From NCBI GenBank assembly GCA_015058655.1, contig SVBX01000002.1:124001-188000 (forward strand): DNA of 64,000 nt, read 5' to 3'. The notes under the pieces are model-generated. The model was not told the origin of the DNA. It worked only from the letters and a program-made list of their open reading frames with translations, and searched no databases. Shown here in pieces: positions 1,673 through 11,853 of this stretch (its first letter is position 1; each line of letters starts with the position of its first letter). The translations under genes and the position numbers were made by a program. The stretch comes from Pseudoselenomonas ruminantium. GTDB lineage: Bacteria; Bacillota; Negativicutes; Selenomonadales; Selenomonadaceae.

Positions 1673-3142
1673 TTGGATGTGTGTGTATTGGAAAAAAGAA
1701 TAGGATTTTATCATGTTTTTCCTTTTCAAAAAATAACGAAAGGGGAAAGGATTATTATATGGGGAATGGGAGAAGTTGGACGCCATTACTTGAAGCAAAT
1801 AGAACTGACTAAGTATTGCAAAGTACTTTTTGCTGTTGATAAAAAGCCTACTATGGAACGCATTGGTGAGGTGAAGGTTTATTCTCCTGATAAGATAAAA
1901 CATTGCTACAACGATACAACCATTGTTATAGCTAATGGAAATTCAGGGATAGTCAGATCAATCAAAAAAGAGCTTAGAAAATGGAATATTCGAGAAGAAC
2001 GAATTGTATGGGATGATTTGATTTGTGAGTCAGATTTATTCACTGCTCCGCTTCGGCTGTCACATAAACTTGAGTTACCAGATGATAAAGTTAATGTTGG
2101 TTTTTTGGTAAGAGGTGGCTTAGGTGACTACTGTGTACATGCAAATTATATACACAAGTTGATAGAAAGATATCAGGATGGCATCATGCAGGTAGATGTC
2201 TATGTTAGGAATGGTTGGGCTTCAGCTAAGGCAGTATTTGGCAATAGTGAAGCTATACATGCCCTGAGATTGGAAGAGGGATATCAGGAAGGATTTAGGG
2301 AATATGATCTTTTTATAGATTTGAGCAGATATCCAGACATACAGTACAAAAACTGGCCCAAAATAGCAGAACTTGCACCTGAACTGTTGGAGTATGTTTC
2401 TTTGTGTGAACGTTTTAGGGATGAATATAATCGGTTTTATAAATATGCGGGAATTCTGGATGGACAATCTGCAAAATTTGAGATAGTACAAGGAAGAAAA
2501 AGAATTCAGCAACCTGATGTCTATGGATTTTTGGGAATTACGGAAGAATATGAGTATGAGGTAAGTATAGAACGAGATGAGGACAGTTATTTAGAAAAGT
2601 CAGGGATTCTAAAGAAGAAATATATACTATTTCATAGAGGTAATGATACCAGACACGACAAGGACTGTGTGAAATTGTGGCCTAAGGCATATTATGATAT
2701 ATTGGCAGGTATGATGAAAGAAAAATGGCCTGATGTTATGCTGATACAAATTGGTGTATCTCCTGAACGTTGTCCAGAAATGGAAAATATGGATCTAAAT
2801 TTAGTAGGGCGAACTTCCTTGGAAGATATAAAACTTTTATTAAAGAACGCTTTGCTTCATGTTGATGGTGAAGGTGGCTTTGCTCATTTGCGCCATGCGT
2901 TACATGGTGGTAAATCTGTAATCTTGTTTGGCCCTACATCTAGAGACTTTTATGGTTATAGCGAAAATATAAACATTTTGGGAGAAGGTTGTGCGACTTG
3001 GTGTGAATGGACTTGTCATGATTGGTTTGAGCATTGTTCCAGAGGTGCAGGGACACCGCCGTGTATGGCCTCTATTGCACCTGAAATGGTTTTTGAATGT
3101 ATAGATCGCTATTTAAGGGAGAGTGAAGCGGCCCATGAATAA
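1673..3142 (+). CDS. GT9-like glycosyltransferase with N-terminal Rossmann module
   Basis: Residues about 18-115 form a Rossmann-like module (IIIWGMGEVG at 27-36). From about 140 onward it resembles GT9 (ADP-heptose:LPS heptosyltransferase fold): RGGLGDY at 147-153, HRGND at 321, and HVDGEGGFAHLRHALHGG followed by ILFGPT near 396-422. The C-terminus has a cysteine-rich stretch (C440, C444, C448, C455, C464) shared with the paralogues in this cluster. Start is uncertain: TTG 1673 or GTG 1679, neither with a strong Shine-Dalgarno. DNA is visibly AT-rich compared with the cluster after 8.7 kb. Donor and acceptor sugars cannot be predicted; the protein could also be a non-catalytic GT9 relative. 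Confidence 0.75.
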   Translation: MDVCVLEKRIGFYHVFPFQKITKGERIIIWGMGEVGRHYLKQIELTKYCKVLFAVDKKPTMERIGEVKVYSPDKIKHCYNDTTIVIANGNSGIVRSIKKELRKWNIREERIVWDDLICESDLFTAPLRLSHKLELPDDKVNVGFLVRGGLGDYCVHANYIHKLIERYQDGIMQVDVYVRNGWASAKAVFGNSEAIHALRLEEGYQEGFREYDLFIDLSRYPDIQYKNWPKIAELAPELLEYVSLCERFRDEYNRFYKYAGILDGQSAKFEIVQGRKRIQQPDVYGFLGITEEYEYEVSIERDEDSYLEKSGILKKKYILFHRGNDTRHDKDCVKLWPKAYYDILAGMMKEKWPDVMLIQIGVSPERCPEMENMDLNLVGRTSLEDIKLLLKNALLHVDGEGGFAHLRHALHGGKSVILFGPTSRDFYGYSENINILGEGCATWCEWTCHDWFEHCSRGAGTPPCMASIAPEMVFECIDRYLRESEAAHE

Positions 3143-4199
3143 GAAATTGTCCGTGGGATTTCGTCTCAATGGTGGAATCGGTACATATATTGCAGAATTG
3201 AATTTTATCAAACACTTTTATGATAAATTTGCTGATAATGTACTTATAACTATTTATGGATCTACCATAGAGGAAGTAAATGACGGCTTGATGTATGGTC
3301 AAGATTTTATTCATTCCTATTATGAAAGACGTTATTACGAAAAAGATAAATATGATTTAGCTATAGATATTAATTGGTTTCCTAAAATAGAGAAAATTGA
3401 TTGGAAAAAAATAGAGCAGGTACCAGAGCTTTTTAATGTTGTAGAGGCGTGGCAGGCATTTGCAGATAATCACTATACATCTATCTATGCTTCAGGCAAC
3501 CCAATTTATGAGTCTAATATCTATACTTATGCTACGGTTAATGGAAAGAATCGATTGGATGTCATGGACATAGACGGACTTTTGGGTATAGGTCGCTATT
3601 TAAGATTCGCATTGAAGGTTTCTGATGATGCGGAAGATATTTTGCGAAACTTTGGTTTGCTTGGGAAGAAATATATAACTATTAATTCAGGGGTTAATGC
3701 GGCCAATAAAACACGACAGTCACCCAAACAATGGCCTATAGAAAATTATATAAAATTTTGCAGGATGATGAAGAAAAAGTATCCCGACATTGTATTGGTA
3801 CAACTGGGAGAAAGTGCTGGAAGTTTAGCATTGCCTGGAGTTGATAGCTGCCTTCTGGATAAGACTGATTTTGAAGAACTTAAAGTAATACTGAAAAATT
3901 CATGTATCCATGTTGATGGTGATTGTGGGATGGTACATATACGCAAGGCCTTACATACAAGACCATCAATCGTACTGTTCGGTCAAACTCCGGCAAGCAT
4001 ACATGGTTATGATGATGATATTGTTCTGACAGCTTCGGTTTGTAAGGAAAATTGTGCTAAGGTGTTTGCCGCCTGGAAAAGAAAGTGTTTGCGGGGAGAT
4101 GTACCTACCTGCATGGCTGCAATTACGCCTGAAATGGTGATGGAAAATATTGTTAAATATTTCACAAATTCTCAGGGGGGGGGCAACATTCTTCCGTAA
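3135..4199 (+). CDS. GT9-like glycosyltransferase, ends at a G9 tract
   Basis: ATG at 3135 overlaps the previous stop by 8 bases and has GGGAGAG upstream. The protein (354 residues) begins VGFRLNGGIGTY, the N-terminal GT9 glycine loop, and later has INSGVNAANKTRQSPKQWP, HVDGDCGMVHIRKALH and VLFGQTP. A cysteine pattern near the end (C-x4-C, CLRG, PTCM) matches its paralogues. The frame stops 16 bases after a run of nine G (4175-4183). With eight G it would read straight into the downstream ParB-like ORF, giving the same domain order as the intact paralogue at 10039-11853. The sequenced form is therefore either a truncated phase state or a frameshift. AT-rich like its upstream neighbour. Confidence 0.75.
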   Translation: MNKKLSVGFRLNGGIGTYIAELNFIKHFYDKFADNVLITIYGSTIEEVNDGLMYGQDFIHSYYERRYYEKDKYDLAIDINWFPKIEKIDWKKIEQVPELFNVVEAWQAFADNHYTSIYASGNPIYESNIYTYATVNGKNRLDVMDIDGLLGIGRYLRFALKVSDDAEDILRNFGLLGKKYITINSGVNAANKTRQSPKQWPIENYIKFCRMMKKKYPDIVLVQLGESAGSLALPGVDSCLLDKTDFEELKVILKNSCIHVDGDCGMVHIRKALHTRPSIVLFGQTPASIHGYDDDIVLTASVCKENCAKVFAAWKRKCLRGDVPTCMAAITPEMVMENIVKYFTNSQGGGNILP

Positions 4200-4668
4200 T
4201 TATATAAATTCAAAAAATACTGAAATCTTATCTATACCGGGTATTTCTCTAGATCCTTCATGGTATGAGAAATGGTTTAAGCAAACGAAAATATATGCAT
4301 ATACACTAGCGAGAGTGGCATTGAGGGATTTGCGCTGTGCAAAGTTATTCCCAAAAGGTTATGAACTGGTTTCGTTAGATGCAATGCCGGCCTATAACTA
4401 CATGATGGGGAATCGGGAGAGTTACTATGATTACATGAATTTGAATGACATCTATAATCCGGGACATGAACATTCTGTTGAGAGATTGAAAAAACTTATT
4501 ATGAATTTGAATGATGAGGGATACGATGCAACTCGGGTATTAGTGGTGAATGGGAAAAATTTAATATTTGATGGAGTACATAGGGCATGTTGGTTGCTGG
4601 CGAAATACGGAGCAGATTATGAAGTGCCTGTTCTGAGAATTTATGGTGATTTTGAAATTTGGGAATGA
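4150..4668 (+). CDS. ParB/sulfiredoxin-like module, probably the out-of-frame 3' half of the preceding GT9 gene
   Basis: The frame has only a TTG at 4150, inside the preceding gene, and no convincing ribosome-binding site. Residues from about 60 onward align by eye to the middle domain of the protein at 10039-11853: AMPAYNYMMGNRESYYDYMNL corresponds to ETPAYRFLTGDREAYVSYLSL, and LIFDGVHRACWLLAKYG corresponds to ILDGQHRAAWLMSKDS. The DGxHRxxW motif is typical of the ParB/sulfiredoxin fold. Loss of one G (or gain of two) in the tract at 4175-4183 would fuse it to the GT9 domain. As sequenced it is probably poorly translated. Function unknown. Confidence 0.55.
   Translation: MLNISQILRGGATFFRNYINSKNTEILSIPGISLDPSWYEKWFKQTKIYAYTLARVALRDLRCAKLFPKGYELVSLDAMPAYNYMMGNRESYYDYMNLNDIYNPGHEHSVERLKKLIMNLNDEGYDATRVLVVNGKNLIFDGVHRACWLLAKYGADYEVPVLRIYGDFEIWE
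4175..4183 (+). repeat. G9 homopolymer at a frame junction (candidate phase-variation tract)
   Basis: Nine consecutive G lie between the GT9 frame (codons at positions divisible by 3) and the ParB-like frame (offset +1). G8 or G11 would give one continuous gene of about 510 codons; G9 ends the product at 4199. Slipped-strand mispairing at such tracts is an established ON/OFF mechanism for surface-structure genes. A homopolymer base-calling error is the main alternative. Confidence 0.7.
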
Positions 4669-4710: not shown

Positions 4711-5370
4711 ATGAAAATTCTGATCAGCTCTGGGGGGGGGTACACCTATGCGCAGACAGGAGATGATTTACTAATCTTAAATCTTTTCAAAAATCTCGGC
4801 ATGAATAAGTTTTCTTATATTGATGTTGGGGCTCATCATCCCTATAACATTAGCAATACCGCGTTGATGTATGAGCGAGGTTGTCGTGGGGTGAATGTAG
4901 AGGCCAACCCTAATTTGATAGAGAATTTCAAAACGGCAAGGCCTGAGGATATAAATCTTAATTTTGGTGTTGCTGCCAAGGAGGGCGAGATGCCCTTTTA
5001 TATGATAGATGATTGGAGTGGCAGGAATACTTTTGACCGTAGGTCTGCTGAAGATTTTGTTAAAAACAACCCACAGTTTACAATTAGAAAAATCATGTCT
5101 ATACCTGTGGTGAGATTGGAATGGATAATACAGGAATACTGCAAGGGAATTTGGCCTGATTTCATGAGTATCGATATCGAGAGTCTGGATTACGAAGTTT
5201 TGAAAAGCCTTGATTTGAAGGACAATGGTCCTAAGATTATTGATGTAGAAGAAAAAGGTGAACATGTCATTAAGATGATGCGTGAGCAGGGATATGAATT
5301 CTGTCTCAACACTGGCAATGCTATTTATATCCGCAAGGAATGTAAGGAGAAGGCTATGTTGGGGCATTAG
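4711..5370 (+). CDS. FkbM-family methyltransferase, frame broken near the start by a G9 tract
   Basis: The protein has the FkbM-type SAM-methyltransferase core: YIDVGAHHPYNISNTALMYE, GVNVEANPNLIENF and DFMSIDIESLDYEVLKSLD. The best start is ATG 4686, preceded by TTAGGAGG, but that frame runs into G9 at 4732-4740 and stops at a TAA near 4771. With G8 it would continue as DQLWGGYTYAQTGDD into this frame. ATG 4711 is in frame but lacks a ribosome-binding site, so expression as sequenced would be weak or absent. Likely O-methylates a glycan or a related acceptor; the substrate is unknown. AT-rich DNA. Confidence 0.75.
   Translation: MKILISSGGGYTYAQTGDDLLILNLFKNLGMNKFSYIDVGAHHPYNISNTALMYERGCRGVNVEANPNLIENFKTARPEDINLNFGVAAKEGEMPFYMIDDWSGRNTFDRRSAEDFVKNNPQFTIRKIMSIPVVRLEWIIQEYCKGIWPDFMSIDIESLDYEVLKSLDLKDNGPKIIDVEEKGEHVIKMMREQGYEFCLNTGNAIYIRKECKEKAMLGH
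4732..4740 (+). repeat. G9 homopolymer near the start of the FkbM gene (candidate phase-variation tract)
   Basis: Nine G follow codon 15 of the frame that begins at the well-preceded ATG 4686. The upstream frame requires 8 or 11 G to join the FkbM frame, so the sequenced state is predicted OFF. The placement resembles classical translational phase-variation tracts near the 5' end of methyltransferase and glycosyltransferase genes. Confidence 0.7.
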
Positions 5371-5392: not shown

Positions 5393-6370
5393 ATGGAAGA
5401 TGAAGTCAAAGTATTGAAAAGTCGCATCGAGAACCTTGAGAAAAGGCTATCATGGATGGAGAACCGTTACAACAATGAATTGGAATTCAGGCAGTTGGGG
5501 GGGAGGATCGATTTCCGATTGATCCGGTTGGAGATGCTGTCCTATTACCACAACAAGGGACGTTATTGGCAACTGGATGAGACACAGAGAAGATTGTTGG
5601 ATGATGTAGAAGATAATCTCTTGAAAAATCAGGGTAGGCATTTCTTTAAGGAGCGTTATTTTGAGGAGCCAGTCAGCATGTCTCCTCAGCACAATCCTAT
5701 TGTTATTGAAGAAAAAGATGGTTTATTCTATTGGTCTATTCGGGGGGGGCAGGTGTTCCTGTCAAAAGAACGGAAGCATGCTGAACAAATTGCCGGAGGT
5801 TTGTATAGAGAATTTTTCCAGCCTAGCCCGCATAATTACTTTGACTTGGAAACTGGCTTTACTGTTGACAGCATACCTGAGGGGGCTGTCGTGGCTGATG
5901 TTGGGTCTGCAGAGGGATTGTTTGGCATGCTTCTGGTGCAAAAGGCAAAGAAGGTTTACCTTTTTGAGAATTCCAGTTACTGGATGCCAATGTTGGAGAA
6001 GACCTATGCTCCTTACAAGGATAAGGTGGAGATTGTGCAGGGGACAGTAGGAGACGGGGCTGGAGACATCCGCCTGGATGATTTCTTCCGTGACAGGGAG
6101 AAGCCTACGCTGGTAAAAATGGATGTAGAGGGGTATGAAGCCTCGGTGCTGCGTGGCATGAGAGGACTTATTTCTTCCCCGGATATGATGACTATGCTGA
6201 TTTGCACATATCATCGCCAGGAGGATTGGCCCCATTTCTATGATTTGCTGAAGGATAATTTCGAGATAACTTCATCGCCGGGATATTACTGGCATATGCC
6301 GGACCCGATGCCGCCCTTTTTCCGTCACGGGGTTATGCGGGCGGTGAAGAAAGCAGGAGTGGAGGAATAA
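5393..6370 (+). CDS. FkbM-family methyltransferase with N-terminal coiled coil
   Basis: ATG 5393 follows GTGGAGG. Residues 1-30 (MEDEVKVLKSRIENLEKRLSWMENRYNNELE) look like a short coiled coil. The SAM-binding core is VVADVGSAEGLFGMLLVQKAKKVYLFE near 163-190, with LVKMDVEGYEASVLRGM near 238, the FkbM signature. It contains G7 at 5497-5503 and G8 at 5742-5749; both are compatible with the full 325-residue frame, so this copy is predicted ON. It sits 22 bases after the other FkbM gene and 4 bases before the next gene, consistent with one operon. Probably methylates a glycan; acceptor unknown. Confidence 0.8.
   Translation: MEDEVKVLKSRIENLEKRLSWMENRYNNELEFRQLGGRIDFRLIRLEMLSYYHNKGRYWQLDETQRRLLDDVEDNLLKNQGRHFFKERYFEEPVSMSPQHNPIVIEEKDGLFYWSIRGGQVFLSKERKHAEQIAGGLYREFFQPSPHNYFDLETGFTVDSIPEGAVVADVGSAEGLFGMLLVQKAKKVYLFENSSYWMPMLEKTYAPYKDKVEIVQGTVGDGAGDIRLDDFFRDREKPTLVKMDVEGYEASVLRGMRGLISSPDMMTMLICTYHRQEDWPHFYDLLKDNFEITSSPGYYWHMPDPMPPFFRHGVMRAVKKAGVEE
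5742..5749 (+). repeat. G8 homopolymer inside an intact FkbM gene
   Basis: Eight G lie in codons of SIRGGQVFL and the frame is kept. Any one-base change would truncate the methyltransferase before its SAM-binding core. A shorter G7 run lies at 5497-5503 in the same gene. Together they make this gene a further candidate contingency locus, here in the ON state. Confidence 0.55.
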
Positions 6371-6374
6371 GTAC

Positions 6375-7577
6375 ATGAGCATGGCATGCTTGGAAGGAAA
6401 TGAGTTTTATTTCCAGGACGATAATGGAAATAGGATAGCATTATTCTCTTTAGAGGAAGTATCTGAGGAAAACAAGGGATTGCCGCTGGATATCCTGATG
6501 GCTGCTGAGGGACATTTCCGAAGGAAAGCATTTCTGCAGGTGCTCCTTTCAGGCCTGCGAAGTTTGGGGGATAAAGGAGAGCAGGCCTTGGGGGAGTCTC
6601 TGGTCTTACTCTCTATGGCAAGATATCTTAACAGAACCGGAGGTGCGGGGGACTTCCTTTTGCTGGGAGAATGTGAATCTTCTCCTTTTGCTATGGCGTT
6701 GTCAAAGGTCATGGAATGTTTTTCTCTTGACAGCCGCCTGTACTGTCTTGGCGAGGGAAAGGGCAGGGAATCTGGTAGGAGCTCCCTGATTTCTCTGCCA
6801 CAGGAACTCAGTACGCTGAATTTGCCGGTGGGAAGATTCGGCGGAGTGATATTGTCTGATGGTACCAGTGGCTTACCCAACGATGTGCTGAGCAAGGCCT
6901 TCTTTGCGACAAATGCTGGTGGGATAGTCTGTTGCCTGTCTGCCAATAGGGAGTTACACGAAAGCTTTTTGGCTTGCTGCCCTGAGGCGAAGATTTATCG
7001 ATTAGGCGGGGATATTACCCTGTACTGGCAGACAGTTTCAGAGGATTTTGCAGCAGTAAGGTATAAAGCGGCGTATCCGGGCCTTGCCATGTGCCCGGAG
7101 AATGCAAAAACACAGCCGAGCAGGAAAAAGACGGTGCTTTTCATGCCATATGCTTTCAGTCAATGGGAGAAAATGAAGCCTCTGTATGAGCAACTAATGA
7201 GCGAGAAGGATAGTTGCACGGCTTTGGTTATGCCCGTGCCCTATGGGGAGAAGGACGAAAAAGGAACTGTGGTCAAGGTGCATTATGAGGGAGATTTTTT
7301 CTCCCAAGAGTGTGATGTACTGGACTACCGCGGAGTGGATATTGCTGCACTTCATCCAGATGTAATTGTGCTGGATCATGCCTATGACAGAAGTGATGCC
7401 AGGTTTGAGGTGGATGATTTCCATTTTGCTGAAAGGCTTTGCCATGTGGCAGACAAAATTGTATGTTTATCTGAAGTGGACGGCATAACAGAGTGTTTGC
7501 GGGGGGGGGGGCACTCTCGGAGGATTCCCAGAATGGAGGCCTATTGTCCTTTATGGAGGAGCAACCTGGCAGGCTGA
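6375..7577 (+). CDS. CDP-glycerol-glycerophosphotransferase-like protein, frame changes at a G11 tract
   Basis: ATG 6375 follows GGAGTGGAGG. The first ~240 residues have no family I recognise; VGRFGGVILSDGTSG looks like an alpha/beta core. Residues ~250-375 (VLFMPYAFSQWEKMKPLYEQL, VMPVPYGEKDEKGT, LDYRGVDIAALHPDVIVLDHAYD) match the N-terminal half of the CDP-glycerol-glycerophosphotransferase-like protein at 15149-16465. At codon ~376 the frame enters G11 (7501-7511), after which the last ~25 residues (HSRRIPRMEAYCPLWRSNLAG) look like out-of-frame translation. With G10 the frame would continue through a Rossmann module into the WcbI-like domain ending at 8691, giving a protein of about 770 residues. 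Confidence 0.65.
   Translation: MSMACLEGNEFYFQDDNGNRIALFSLEEVSEENKGLPLDILMAAEGHFRRKAFLQVLLSGLRSLGDKGEQALGESLVLLSMARYLNRTGGAGDFLLLGECESSPFAMALSKVMECFSLDSRLYCLGEGKGRESGRSSLISLPQELSTLNLPVGRFGGVILSDGTSGLPNDVLSKAFFATNAGGIVCCLSANRELHESFLACCPEAKIYRLGGDITLYWQTVSEDFAAVRYKAAYPGLAMCPENAKTQPSRKKTVLFMPYAFSQWEKMKPLYEQLMSEKDSCTALVMPVPYGEKDEKGTVVKVHYEGDFFSQECDVLDYRGVDIAALHPDVIVLDHAYDRSDARFEVDDFHFAERLCHVADKIVCLSEVDGITECLRGGGHSRRIPRMEAYCPLWRSNLAG
7501..7511 (+). repeat. G11 homopolymer joining two protein modules (candidate phase-variation tract)
   Basis: Eleven G, the longest homopolymer I saw. The upstream frame (LSEVDGITECL) and the downstream frame (TLGGFPEWRPIVLYGGATW) are joined by G10 or G13. The downstream frame has no start codon before GTG 7666 although it is open from 7489, which supports the view that it is normally translated as a continuation. 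By eye the DNA downstream is more AT-rich than upstream, so the tract also marks a compositional boundary. Confidence 0.75.
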
Positions 7578-7665
7578 GAAGTTCTGTTATCAATTTGGCG
7601 GTATTGATGCTATTTCTTATTTTGCTAACAAAGAATCTGGAGGAGAGTTTCATGGCAGAAAAATT

Positions 7666-8691
7666 GTGGCACTGAATGATATATCTGATATAAAGAAATG
7701 TCTTGTTCTAGCAGCCACGACCTGGGGAGAGTATATAAGACTAAAAGACGAATTGGCAAAGCAAGGGCTGAAAGAGTTCGATAATTTTTTCTACTGGGAA
7801 GCCTATATAAAGAAAATTGCAGTTGTTCATGCAAACTGTTATGGATCTGCCTATATGGAATTCCTTAAGAAAAGCCAAGACTTTGCAGGAGAATACTTCT
7901 TATACCCTTTGCCGGCTATACATATGAATATGGCAGGAAGACTGGATGAGGCACTACTGAAAAATTGTGACTTGTTTATCCATCAAGACATCCGTAAGGA
8001 TAACCGCTATGGTTATTACTTCTCGGATGAATATATATTGCCAAGGTTGAATAAAGATTGCAAGCGGTTAGTTGTGCCTAATCTAGTACCGTTCACGGAA
8101 GTAATTTTTCCGAAGAGTTTTGTCACAGGAGCACCGCGTATTAATTTGCATGGTGCTACTCAAGATGTTTTGTTTGCTGGAAATCGTATCTTGGACGAAG
8201 CTTTTCAAAGTGGTAAAGATTTAGAAGGAATCATGGCAGAGTTCTTGGATGTTAATATTGTGTCTGAGAAGGAAAAACAGCAGGTTAGGGACCATTTTGA
8301 TGAAAAAATGGAATCCTTGAGGAAAAGAGAGGAAAAATGGGATGTTAAGATACGAGATTATATCTTGGAGAATTATCAGGAATATAAATTATTCACGGAT
8401 TTATCCCATCCAAGCCTTAAACTCATGAGTGAAATCTGCCGTAGAATAGGGAAAACTTTAGGGTTGAGAGATGTATTAGAAATCCAGTTGGACAGTGACT
8501 ATGAAATGGTTGAAATGTATGTTATGCCCTGGGTGAAAGACGCACTGGGATTAAAATTTTCTGAGAAGTATGTGCGTAGCAATAATCGACTCAATTTGCC
8601 AAATCGTAACAAGTTGGGAGATGGACGGATGGGCTTGCGAGAGTATATTCGCGAATATGTATATTGGAAGTTTGGTAAATTTTTAGATTGA
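7666..8691 (+). CDS. WcbI-like polysaccharide biosynthesis protein, probably the 3' part of a fusion gene
   Basis: Residues 52-120 contain VVHANCYGSAYMEFL (55-60 HANCYG) and LFIHQDIRKDNRYG (QDIR at 107-110), which fit the WcbI family of capsule-type acetyltransferase-like proteins. The open frame extends back to 7489 and encodes a Rossmann-like module (PIVLYGGATWQAEKFCYQFGG, then YFANKESGGEFHGRKIVAL) before GTG 7666; this is only expressed if the G tract at 7501 allows read-through. GTG 7666 has no clear ribosome-binding site. The C-terminal ~150 residues are charged and unassigned. DNA is AT-rich relative to both flanks. Catalytic activity is unproven for this family. Confidence 0.65.
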   Translation: MALNDISDIKKCLVLAATTWGEYIRLKDELAKQGLKEFDNFFYWEAYIKKIAVVHANCYGSAYMEFLKKSQDFAGEYFLYPLPAIHMNMAGRLDEALLKNCDLFIHQDIRKDNRYGYYFSDEYILPRLNKDCKRLVVPNLVPFTEVIFPKSFVTGAPRINLHGATQDVLFAGNRILDEAFQSGKDLEGIMAEFLDVNIVSEKEKQQVRDHFDEKMESLRKREEKWDVKIRDYILENYQEYKLFTDLSHPSLKLMSEICRRIGKTLGLRDVLEIQLDSDYEMVEMYVMPWVKDALGLKFSEKYVRSNNRLNLPNRNKLGDGRMGLREYIREYVYWKFGKFLD

Positions 8692-8704
8692 TTTTGAGGC
8701 GGCT

Positions 8705-10042
8705 ATGAAGGAAAAAGTCATCATCTTCGGCGCGGGAGACAACTTCCTGCACCACTATACATTCCTGAAAGACAAATATGATATTTTGGCGGTGCTGGAT
8801 AACTCTCCTGCCAAGCAGGGCATGAAGTTCGGTGAGCTGCAAGTGGTACCCCTGCGGGATATGCCTTCTGTCTCTTATGACAAGGTGATAGTGACGCCGA
8901 ATGCCTTTTCTGCCATCATCCAGCAGCTGAGGGATGCGGGGGTGCCGGGGGAGAAGATATTCCGGCTGACGGATATTACTCAGGTATCTTTGGCCAGCCG
9001 TGGCTGCAGGCTGGCGTTCCTGCTGAATGGAGGGTTGGGGGATTACCTTATCTCTGCCAACTATCTCTATATTCTCCGGCAAAAGTACTTTGTGGGCAGG
9101 AAGATAGATTTGTACTGCGATACGGGAGCCACTTATGCAGAGCATGTTTTCAGCAGCTGGGAGGCTGTAGACAGGATAGAGTATTTGGAAAAGGGCGCCA
9201 AGCCTGACCTGGATGGTTATGCCATGGCTATGAAAATCTCCCGTTATCCTGAGATTCTCAGGGCTGACAAGGAGGTGCTGGCAAAATTCTGCCCTGATTT
9301 CATAGATTATCTGCTGGCCTGTGAGAAATTCAGGATTTTCAATAAGCGCTTCTTCCAGCCAGGGCTGATGGCAGATGGTCAGGGAGCCTGTCTTTCGGAA
9401 ATTGGTGGTATTAGCAGGATTCAGCAGCCTGATATTTACCATATTCTGGGCATTGGTTTGGAGTACAGATATCCTTTGGCTATGAGAGGGACAGAAGATG
9501 TGCTGGCTCGTTTTGGGCTGGAGGGTGATGGCTATATTACTCTGCACCGAGGAGCAGATGCTCGCTATGCGGAGAGATCGGTGAAGCTGTGGCCTGTGGA
9601 AAAGTATAATTCTCTGCTGAGGAAACTACGGGAACGTTTTCCGGCTTTGAAGATCGTACAGCTGGGCACAGAGGCAGAATGCTATCCGGGAATGGATCCG
9701 GCTTCTATTGACCTGCGGGGCAGGACTTCTTTTGAAGAGCTGAAAGTGTTGCTCGGCAGAAGCAGGCTTCATATAGACAATGAGGGGGGACTGGTGCATC
9801 TGCGTCATGCTTTGCATGGTGGCACCTCCATTGTGCTTTTTGGCCCCACTTCTGAAAAATTTTTCGGCTATCCAGAAAATCGCAACCTGCGGGGCAATGG
9901 CTGCGTGCATTGGTGCGAATGGGCAACGGATAATTGGCAGGAACATTGCCCCAGAGGAGAGGCGATTCCGCCCTGTATGGCTTCCATCTCTGCTTCTGTG
10001 GTGATGAAAGAAGTTATTTCCTGCCTGGAGGGGAAAGCATGA
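8705..10042 (+). CDS. GT9-like glycosyltransferase with N-terminal Rossmann module
   Basis: ATG 8705 lies 13 bases after the previous stop behind GAGGCGGC. Residues 1-95 form a Rossmann module (KVIIFGAGDNFLHHY, ILAVLDNSPAKQG). The GT9 part starts near 100 (LAFLLNGGLGDYLISANY) and has TLHRGADARYAERSVKLWP, IVQLGTEAECYP, LRGRTSFEELKVLLGRS and HIDNEGGLVHLRHALHGG with IVLFGPTSEKFFGY. The cysteine signature near the end is GCVHWCEW, HCPRG, PPCM. It closely resembles the protein at 1673-3142 in domain order and motifs but is encoded in GC-richer DNA, so the two look like diverged copies of one module. Confidence 0.8.
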   Translation: MKEKVIIFGAGDNFLHHYTFLKDKYDILAVLDNSPAKQGMKFGELQVVPLRDMPSVSYDKVIVTPNAFSAIIQQLRDAGVPGEKIFRLTDITQVSLASRGCRLAFLLNGGLGDYLISANYLYILRQKYFVGRKIDLYCDTGATYAEHVFSSWEAVDRIEYLEKGAKPDLDGYAMAMKISRYPEILRADKEVLAKFCPDFIDYLLACEKFRIFNKRFFQPGLMADGQGACLSEIGGISRIQQPDIYHILGIGLEYRYPLAMRGTEDVLARFGLEGDGYITLHRGADARYAERSVKLWPVEKYNSLLRKLRERFPALKIVQLGTEAECYPGMDPASIDLRGRTSFEELKVLLGRSRLHIDNEGGLVHLRHALHGGTSIVLFGPTSEKFFGYPENRNLRGNGCVHWCEWATDNWQEHCPRGEAIPPCMASISASVVMKEVISCLEGKA

Positions 10043-11853
10043 GCGATAAGATACGGTTAGCCATTATGACTAATGGTGGCATGGGCAATCTTTTCATACA
10101 GGCAAACTTTATCTTTTGCCTCCATGAATATCTGCAGGCTGAACCCTTGAGCTGGACAGTATTCGGACATGCTTCCGAGGAACTTAACCAGGCTGTGTTT
10201 CGTCATCTGGACTTCCTGACCGACTGGTATGGCTATGGGGAGCGGGGACAGGCTCTGTCCTATGATGTCTGCATCAATTTGAATTTCTATCCTGAAGTGA
10301 TGACAGCATCAGCTGCGGCTAAGGCAAAATGTCCCAGACTGGCTGGTCTTTTGGCTGGCTGGGAGGATTTCCTGCAGGATGAATCCCGTCGCTACTCTTG
10401 CAGTCACCCAGAGGCTGATTTCAATGTGTACCTCCTGGCCCTGCTGCAGGGGAAGAATTGCTTGAATGTGGCTGATGTGACAGGGGAATTAAAGATTCCA
10501 AAGGCTGAGTACAGGCTGCCTATGACAGCTGAGAGTGAGGATTTCCTGATAAAGTCAGAACTTGCTCCCGGAGAATATATCACAGTACACAGAGGGGCTT
10601 CGGCCTTGCTGGCAAGAGAAGCCAGTCTCAAACTTTGGCCTGAGGAATATTATGGGGAACTTGTCAGGCTCTTGAAACAGTGTTTTCCGGAGAAGCAGAT
10701 TGTACAATTGGGCGAGGGGGATTCTGCAGAATCCTTGCCGGGAGTAGATGTTTCCCTACTGGGCAAGACTGGCTGGGAGGACTTGAAGCAGCTCCTGCAG
10801 CACAGCTGGCTGCATATAGATACTGAGGGGGGGCTGGTGCATTTGCGCAAGGCGCTTCGTGGAGGTCCCTCAGTAGTGCTTTTCGGGCCTACGCCAAAAG
10901 ATTTTTATGGTTATGAAGGTAATATCAATATTTTTGCTGAGACATGTCCTCATTGGTGTGCAAGGCTTACAGATAACTGGACTGTCCGCTGCGCCAGGGA
11001 AGATGGCAAGCAGATTTGCATGACTGGCATTATTCCTGCTAAGGTTTTGAAGAAGATTATGGAATGGAATTGCTTGGAGATGGTTCGGCAGGACAGGCTG
11101 GAAAAGATGTGGGGAAGTTTTCAGGAAGAAAGGCTGCTTGATAATCTGGATGCACGGTACCGCAGGGATTTTCTATGGCAGCATGATATTTATTATGCGG
11201 AATTACGGCAGATGTCTGTCCAAAGCCTGAGGGCTATTGTCATGACTGAGCACGGCTTCGAGTGGTGGCCGATAGGGGAGACTCCGGCGTATCGTTTTCT
11301 TACAGGGGATAGGGAGGCGTATGTCAGTTACCTTTCGTTGTTAAGGGAAAAATATGATGACAAGATTCATACTGAAGAGAGGTTTGCACGGTTAGTTCGA
11401 AGTCTGGAAGAGCGGGGCTATGATAGTGAGAGCTGTCCTGTAGCGGTGGATTTTGAGGGGCGCATCTTAGATGGCCAGCACCGTGCTGCTTGGCTGATGA
11501 GTAAGGATTCAAAGGTGAAGCTTGAGGTGCTGGTGTTGCATTCCTTCTATGATACGGAGGGAATGTTTCCTTTTCGCAAGGTTCAGCGCGGCAGCAGGGT
11601 GGTTATCTACGGTATGGGGAAACTAGGGCAAGCGTATGTTAGCCAGCTTTTGAGCACTAATTTTGCTGAGATTGCTTTCAAGGTTGACAGGAGTTCAGAC
11701 GAAAGCCTTGGCATCTATCCGCCAGAATACATCAGGGAGCACATAGATGCTTTTGATGTGGTAGTCATTGCTACTGCCAATAAAAGACATTTGGCAGAGA
11801 TAACAGATTTTCTTCAGGGAATAGGAATCGCTTCAGAGCGTATTGTCAGTTAG
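10039..11853 (+). CDS. Three-module protein: GT9-like, ParB/sulfiredoxin-like and Rossmann domains
   Basis: ATG 10039 overlaps the preceding stop (ATGA) behind GGAGGGG. The protein has 604 residues. Residues 1-350 are GT9-like (IMTNGGMGNLFIQANF, ITVHRGASALLAREASLKLWP, HIDTEGGLVHLRKALRGG, VVLFGPTPKDFYGY). Residues ~370-505 are the ParB/sulfiredoxin-like module with ILDGQHRAAWL (DGQHR at 478-482). Residues ~510-604 are a Rossmann module (FPFRKVQRGSRVVIYGMGKLG). This intact gene shows that the GT9 and ParB-like ORFs at 3135-4668 are parts of one broken gene. A G7 run near 10827 is in frame. Function beyond glycan transfer is unknown. Confidence 0.75.
   Translation: MSDKIRLAIMTNGGMGNLFIQANFIFCLHEYLQAEPLSWTVFGHASEELNQAVFRHLDFLTDWYGYGERGQALSYDVCINLNFYPEVMTASAAAKAKCPRLAGLLAGWEDFLQDESRRYSCSHPEADFNVYLLALLQGKNCLNVADVTGELKIPKAEYRLPMTAESEDFLIKSELAPGEYITVHRGASALLAREASLKLWPEEYYGELVRLLKQCFPEKQIVQLGEGDSAESLPGVDVSLLGKTGWEDLKQLLQHSWLHIDTEGGLVHLRKALRGGPSVVLFGPTPKDFYGYEGNINIFAETCPHWCARLTDNWTVRCAREDGKQICMTGIIPAKVLKKIMEWNCLEMVRQDRLEKMWGSFQEERLLDNLDARYRRDFLWQHDIYYAELRQMSVQSLRAIVMTEHGFEWWPIGETPAYRFLTGDREAYVSYLSLLREKYDDKIHTEERFARLVRSLEERGYDSESCPVAVDFEGRILDGQHRAAWLMSKDSKVKLEVLVLHSFYDTEGMFPFRKVQRGSRVVIYGMGKLGQAYVSQLLSTNFAEIAFKVDRSSDESLGIYPPEYIREHIDAFDVVVIATANKRHLAEITDFLQGIGIASERIVS

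Follow-up and report, generated by a model that had tools for sequence, protein, structure and literature searches.

A poly-G tract at the joint of an apparently chimeric WcbI-domain gene as a candidate phase-variation switch in Pseudoselenomonas ruminantium

Surface-glycan genes are typical carriers of the poly-G tracts of Campylobacter. Phase variation through such tracts is well known, and those of the Campylobacter contingency genes mostly measure 8–11 G, lie within ORFs, and are found in a mixture of ON and OFF states (PMC6321876). In Helicobacter canadensis, a tract-driven merging of ORFs has been proposed for HCAN_0660/0661, in which one ORF merges with the next or not according to the length of a poly-G tract in its late part, an arrangement that its authors regarded as perhaps unprecedented (PMC2823697). 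As to the enzyme module concerned here, WcbI of Burkholderia pseudomallei (PDB 4bqn/4bqo), a single chain of 312 residues with neither a Rossmann nor a transferase module, is a CoA-binding protein. It has been put forward as a capsule acetyltransferase, apparently dependent on a partner module, an activity never demonstrated for WcbI, the type protein included (PMC4104973).

In the 64,000-nucleotide stretch of Pseudoselenomonas ruminantium DNA analyzed here (the window), we describe a poly-G run that is probably a switch of this familiar kind in an unusual place. The locus resembles the Campylobacter contingency genes in the above respects and differs from them in that it belongs to another phylum and in that its tract, at position 7501, joins gene halves of differing GC and family. 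With HCAN_0660/0661 it shares a tract whose length governs merger with the following frame; however, the downstream ORF of H. canadensis, an annotated CDS of 82 aa, is believed to be produced separately too, and both ORFs there are hypothetical, whereas the downstream frame is here startless, encodes a recognizable WcbI enzyme module, and is set off by a compositional joint, and read-level length variation was reported in H. canadensis (PMC2823697), when the 7501 tract is known from one assembled genome. On balance, we think it likely that the locus is a chimeric phase-variable glycan-modifying gene, the poly-G joint of which would act as a slipped-strand switch that is OFF as assembled. The mechanism is known, yet its placement between modules and the lineage appear new: in the literature searched, the coverage of which was incomplete, we found no paper on poly-G glycan switching in gut or rumen Negativicutes. 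The features on which the argument turns are as follows.

6361–6365, + strand: Shine–Dalgarno sequence GGAGG of the gene starting at 6375, from the sequence
6375–7577, + strand: upstream ORF of 400 aa in the assembled state, comprising the N-module and a truncated CDP-glycerol-transferase-like half, the putative OFF product
6375–7004, + strand: N-module, about residues 1–210, methyltransferase-like Rossmann by predicted secondary structure (low-confidence model)
7101–7469, + strand: N-terminal part of a CDP-glycerol glycerophosphotransferase-like GT-B domain, residues 243–365, by sequence comparison
7489–8691, + strand: startless open stretch in frame 1, Rossmann-like module plus WcbI, by ORF reading
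7501–7511, + strand: G11 tract at the module joint, proposed slipped-strand switch
7513–7812, + strand: Rossmann-like module, by alignment to a Clostridium chromiireducens gene (L082), phmmer, and AlphaFold2
7540–7620, no strand: support interval of a GC change point, GC 0.486 before and 0.377 after
7666–7668, + strand: GTG, earliest start candidate of frame 1, inside the Rossmann module, without Shine–Dalgarno sequence
7819–8469, + strand: WcbI domain PF18588, by profile and by sequence and fold comparison with PDB 4bqn
7837–7839, + strand: Cys codon aligned to the CoA-contacting Cys14 of WcbI (PMC4104973)
8407–8409, + strand: His codon aligned to His201 of WcbI (PMC4104973)
8705–10042, + strand: next gene 3' (Rossmann plus GT9), from sequence and domains, with its own Shine–Dalgarno sequence at 8696–8699

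The upstream gene is covered by no Pfam or NCBIfam family in profile searches. Its residues 243–365 share 26–36% identity with many full-length relatives, nearly all alignments stopping near residue 365, and the C-terminal transferase half, with the conserved GSPK, WWRPHPLL, and GIYDD segments, is missing; compared with the complete two-half GT-B architecture of PF04464, only the first ~120 residues are present, with no Pfam match. The N-module stands alone at L088–L090 and, in another Selenomonadaceae genome (G172), precedes a complete CDP-glycerol-type transferase: there, an ORF on the reverse strand (L038:778-2514) encodes 579 aa made of the N-module and the complete transferase, with no WcbI. 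The C-terminus of this 579-aa ORF resembles that of an IspD-like cytidylyltransferase, another chimera in the gene family. Truncated ORFs of 233–282 aa that hold no more than the first part of the CDP-glycerol-type transferase were also encountered in several species (L012:1114-1911, L016:1399-2127 on the reverse strand, L004, L005, L013, and L052); several have a common tail like CPKPLxxRGFGDS, some sit beside full-length copies, and these short first-part ORFs may represent a mobile element or a donor cassette.

Immediately after a TAA codon (7486–7488), frame 1 stays open for 400 codons and a stop. The first ATG, GTG, or TTG in this frame is the GTG at 7666 and the first ATG lies at 7855, so that the preliminary description was right that the frame is open from 7489 with no start before 7666. 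An open frame of this length with two recognizable modules is more than chance. The WcbI module is intact: it matches PF18588 with 90.4 bits against a curated cut-off of 29.2 (E 1.6e-25), PDB 4bqn is recovered by sequence (E 8e-5) and by profile (3e-20), the predicted structure matches 4bqn in Foldseek (E 7e-12, prob 1.00), and the equivalents of Cys14 and His201 are C117 and H307 of frame 1, all of which liken it to the B. pseudomallei protein (PMC4104973). The Rossmann module that had been proposed before WcbI is weak by sequence (phmmer E 0.001, the search being very small) and gains support from the C. chromiireducens alignment and from AlphaFold2, which predicts its strands and helices at a pLDDT of about 55–66; its first strand, PIVLYGG, starts 9 residues past the last in-tract glycine.

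The two halves are nevertheless out of frame as assembled, because the 6375 gene, with exactly 11 G in its run, stops at 7577. By computation, tracts of 8, 9, 10, 11, 12, 13, and 14 G give from the 6375 start products of 399, 432, 771, 400, 433, 772, and 401 aa, so that G10 or G13 yields a single chain of 771–772 aa and a change of tract length is all that joins the frames. The locus thereby shows what is expected of a phase-variable poly-G gene, a run of at least 8 G in an ORF, changes in the length of which bring an otherwise intact product in or out of frame. Since no earlier start codon exists, coding before GTG 7666 in frame 1 makes sense only as a continuation of the upstream gene, as had been argued for 7501–7665, but the continuation is out of frame at G11; over 7512–7665, the codon-usage likelihood is 0.194 for frame 1, with frame 2 close at 0.149. 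Likewise, the startless WcbI part agrees with the claim of a fused gene, when the word “proved” was too strong for a product that requires G10 or G13. AlphaFold2 modeling of the joined chain, one of the checks proposed at that stage, gave a pLDDT of 49, too low to judge the packing of the halves, and the stability of a 771-aa protein is questionable because its transferase half is truncated.

As anticipated, the three-module combination proved unfamiliar: no single chain with all three modules was found among 189 Selenomonadaceae genomes, nor in genus, plasmid, and phage searches, and the phylum samples and viral contigs, for which the WcbI half or profile alone served as query, gave no convincing relative. 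WcbI is itself rare, being found in 5 of the 189 family genomes, source genome included, and in 1 of 398 genomes of the phylum sample, which is the source genome; a contig scan with a single protein returned no match, and one with an alignment returned seven loci. The closest counterpart, in C. chromiireducens (L082:3617-4858), carries both modules in an identical order, and its N-terminus aligns directly 3' of the tract position, but it stands as a gene apart, begins at an ATG of its own, has no tract, and is not joined to a transferase gene. Together with relatives in which WcbI is a stand-alone gene and with the transferase of G172, this largely bears out elsewhere the two-gene organization that had been named as contrary to fusion, though inside the window no such organization is found.

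Composition points the same way as these relatives. The GC change point has a log-likelihood ratio of 13.9, against a maximum of 7.6 in 300 codon shuffles, and GC climbs back close to where the WcbI ORF ends (8685–8811); given this fall and later rise, the Rossmann–WcbI part looks like an imported low-GC piece on a truncated native gene. A GC step exactly at the tract was considered and dropped, the best change point, 7579, lying 68 bases downstream. Given the truncation of the transferase half and the GC shift at the joint, the best reading of the three-module gene is a recent-looking, lineage-specific chimera rather than an established fused family.

According to pattern searches, the 3.1-Mb genome contains 12 runs of at least 9 G, two of at least 10 G, and the G11 at 7501 is the longest. 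In order-2 Markov copies of the 64 kb, the probability of any run of at least 11 G was 0.013 and four runs of at least 9 G occurred in 0 of 150 copies, the more lenient order-1 model giving 0.15 and 0.06; synonymous resampling of the 771-aa chain produced a run of at least 10 G in 2.7% of cases. A single G11 in a G-rich genome of this size is not rare in itself, and since the tract alone is only moderately unusual, its setting matters more. In this regard, 3 of the genome's 12 runs of at least 9 G fall within 3.4 kb at the locus, where three further G8–G9 runs accompany the G11.

4175–4183, + strand: G9 at the end of a GT9 gene (3123–4199), before an out-of-frame DGxHRA-motif ORF (4150–4668)
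4732–4740, + strand: G9, in frame, early in an FkbM methyltransferase ORF (4711–5370)
5742–5749, + strand: G8, in frame, in an FkbM-domain ORF (5393–6370)

Elsewhere in the same cluster, at 9934–11853, GT9, DGxHRA, and Rossmann modules form one 639-aa ORF, to which the split GT9/DGxHRA pair aligns at 33% (9e-65) and 32% (2e-18).

Tracts also occur in homologous surface-glycan genes of relatives, lengths being read from one genome per species. Five of the seven WcbI genes in other Selenomonadaceae genomes carry G10–G12: in three genes of G073 (RGIG4823) and in one of G092 the tract lies at a common site before DLFISQ, some in frame and some out of frame, and the gene of G085 has an in-frame tract at a different site. 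As to the remaining two genes, one in G073 is tractless, and in that of G087 a run of N occupies the position of the G085 tract. Given each genome's density of runs of at least 10 G, and with the window excluded, the joint chance of these tracts is ~6e-9, a figure for an association noticed in the course of the analysis, and one that overstates independence because three of the five tracts belong to paralogues in one MAG at one site. In a congener, a LicD gene is also split.

L128 (congener G002), tract at 1502, − strand: LicD gene split by a G15 run

G073, a ruminant Selenomonadaceae MAG, has 86 runs of at least 10 G and four WcbI genes (L084, L086), three of them with G11 or G12 at an identical site, a large candidate phase-variable repertoire. 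Tracts of other kinds were seen as well. In one genome (L024 and L025, tract at 1501), a common promoter-like element, AAAAAATGTCTTGTGGGGGGGGGCTTCTGT[AG]TTATA, has a G9 in its spacer, and one of these elements lies just 5' of an outer-membrane ShlB/TpsB-like gene, where transcriptional phase variation is possible; at L023 (tract at 1501), a G9 lies where the signal peptide of a long, repetitive autotransporter-like protein is encoded.

The locus could alternatively be a dead remnant, in which recombination or deletion fused two fragments out of frame, WcbI being a recent pseudogene and the G run incidental. The truncated transferase half, the GC step near the joint, the lack of a conserved three-module relative, and the frequency of truncated transferase ORFs in the family would all suit such an origin; we hold it to be improbable, however, as there is exactly one frame error, sited where the genome has its longest G run, in two halves that are otherwise open, with the WcbI Cys and His intact and tracts recurring in WcbI and glycan genes of relatives. 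Long G runs are also error-prone in sequencing and assembly, and the true tract might be in frame and the gene simply fused. This seems quite unlikely, in that further G8–G9 runs close by read in frame, and a G10 gene would in any case carry the same unstable tract, which would hardly alter the biology.

Homopolymers of at least 9 nucleotides can cause slippage, and programmed or stochastic slippage of the ribosome or RNA polymerase on the G11 would give a fixed fraction of joined product with the DNA unchanged. We find this very unlikely: the common −1 ribosomal shift would not yield WcbI, because it enters the third frame and ends in a product of 433 aa, a +1 or −2 shift being required, and relatives keep no tract at the site equivalent to 7501. 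Finally, the separate Rossmann–WcbI gene of C. chromiireducens might suggest two genes here too, with Rossmann–WcbI translation beginning at an internal start, GTG 7666 or some other, and coupled to the termination of the upstream ORF at 7577, but this is hardly credible, as GTG 7666 would halve the Rossmann module and has no Shine–Dalgarno sequence, when strong ones precede both 6375 and 8705 (GAGG), and as the first ATG falls past the conserved Cys.

We thus retain the slipped-strand switch, under which recombination in the polysaccharide locus would have joined a native N-module and first transferase part to a lower-GC Rossmann–WcbI gene that lost its own start. Slipped-strand mispairing would then alter the length of the poly-G run at the joint. 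In the OFF state, as assembled, ribosomes from 6375 would end at 7577 without making WcbI; in the ON state, they would read on into the Rossmann–WcbI part. Since the 11-G run sits at an out-of-frame joint before a startless WcbI part, gain or loss of G probably toggles this part, and because WcbI probably acylates surface polysaccharide, cells may alternate between two glycan forms, presumably to their benefit. Considering the CoA binding and proposed capsule acetyltransferase role of WcbI, a switching of acyl modification would be the most likely effect. More tentatively, and with less conviction than for the switch itself, the tracts at 4175 and 7501 might both be joints that attach and detach catalytic modules, and WcbI might be phase-variable independently at no fewer than three tract positions in the family; as both tracts lie between modules, slippage would then rewire multi-module glycan enzymes, beyond merely truncating them.

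If the switch is genuine, peptides spanning CLRGGGTLGGFPEW and peptides of the WcbI part are expected in in-frame length variants only, and the locus would offer a natural test of WcbI action on polysaccharide, as a single culture should contain both ON and OFF cells. Contingency loci could then alter the module composition of enzymes through between-module tracts, which would also account for the breaking up of such genes by gene callers. In this family of Negativicutes from gut and rumen, surface glycans would thereby vary through simple poly-G switches, as in Campylobacter and Helicobacter.
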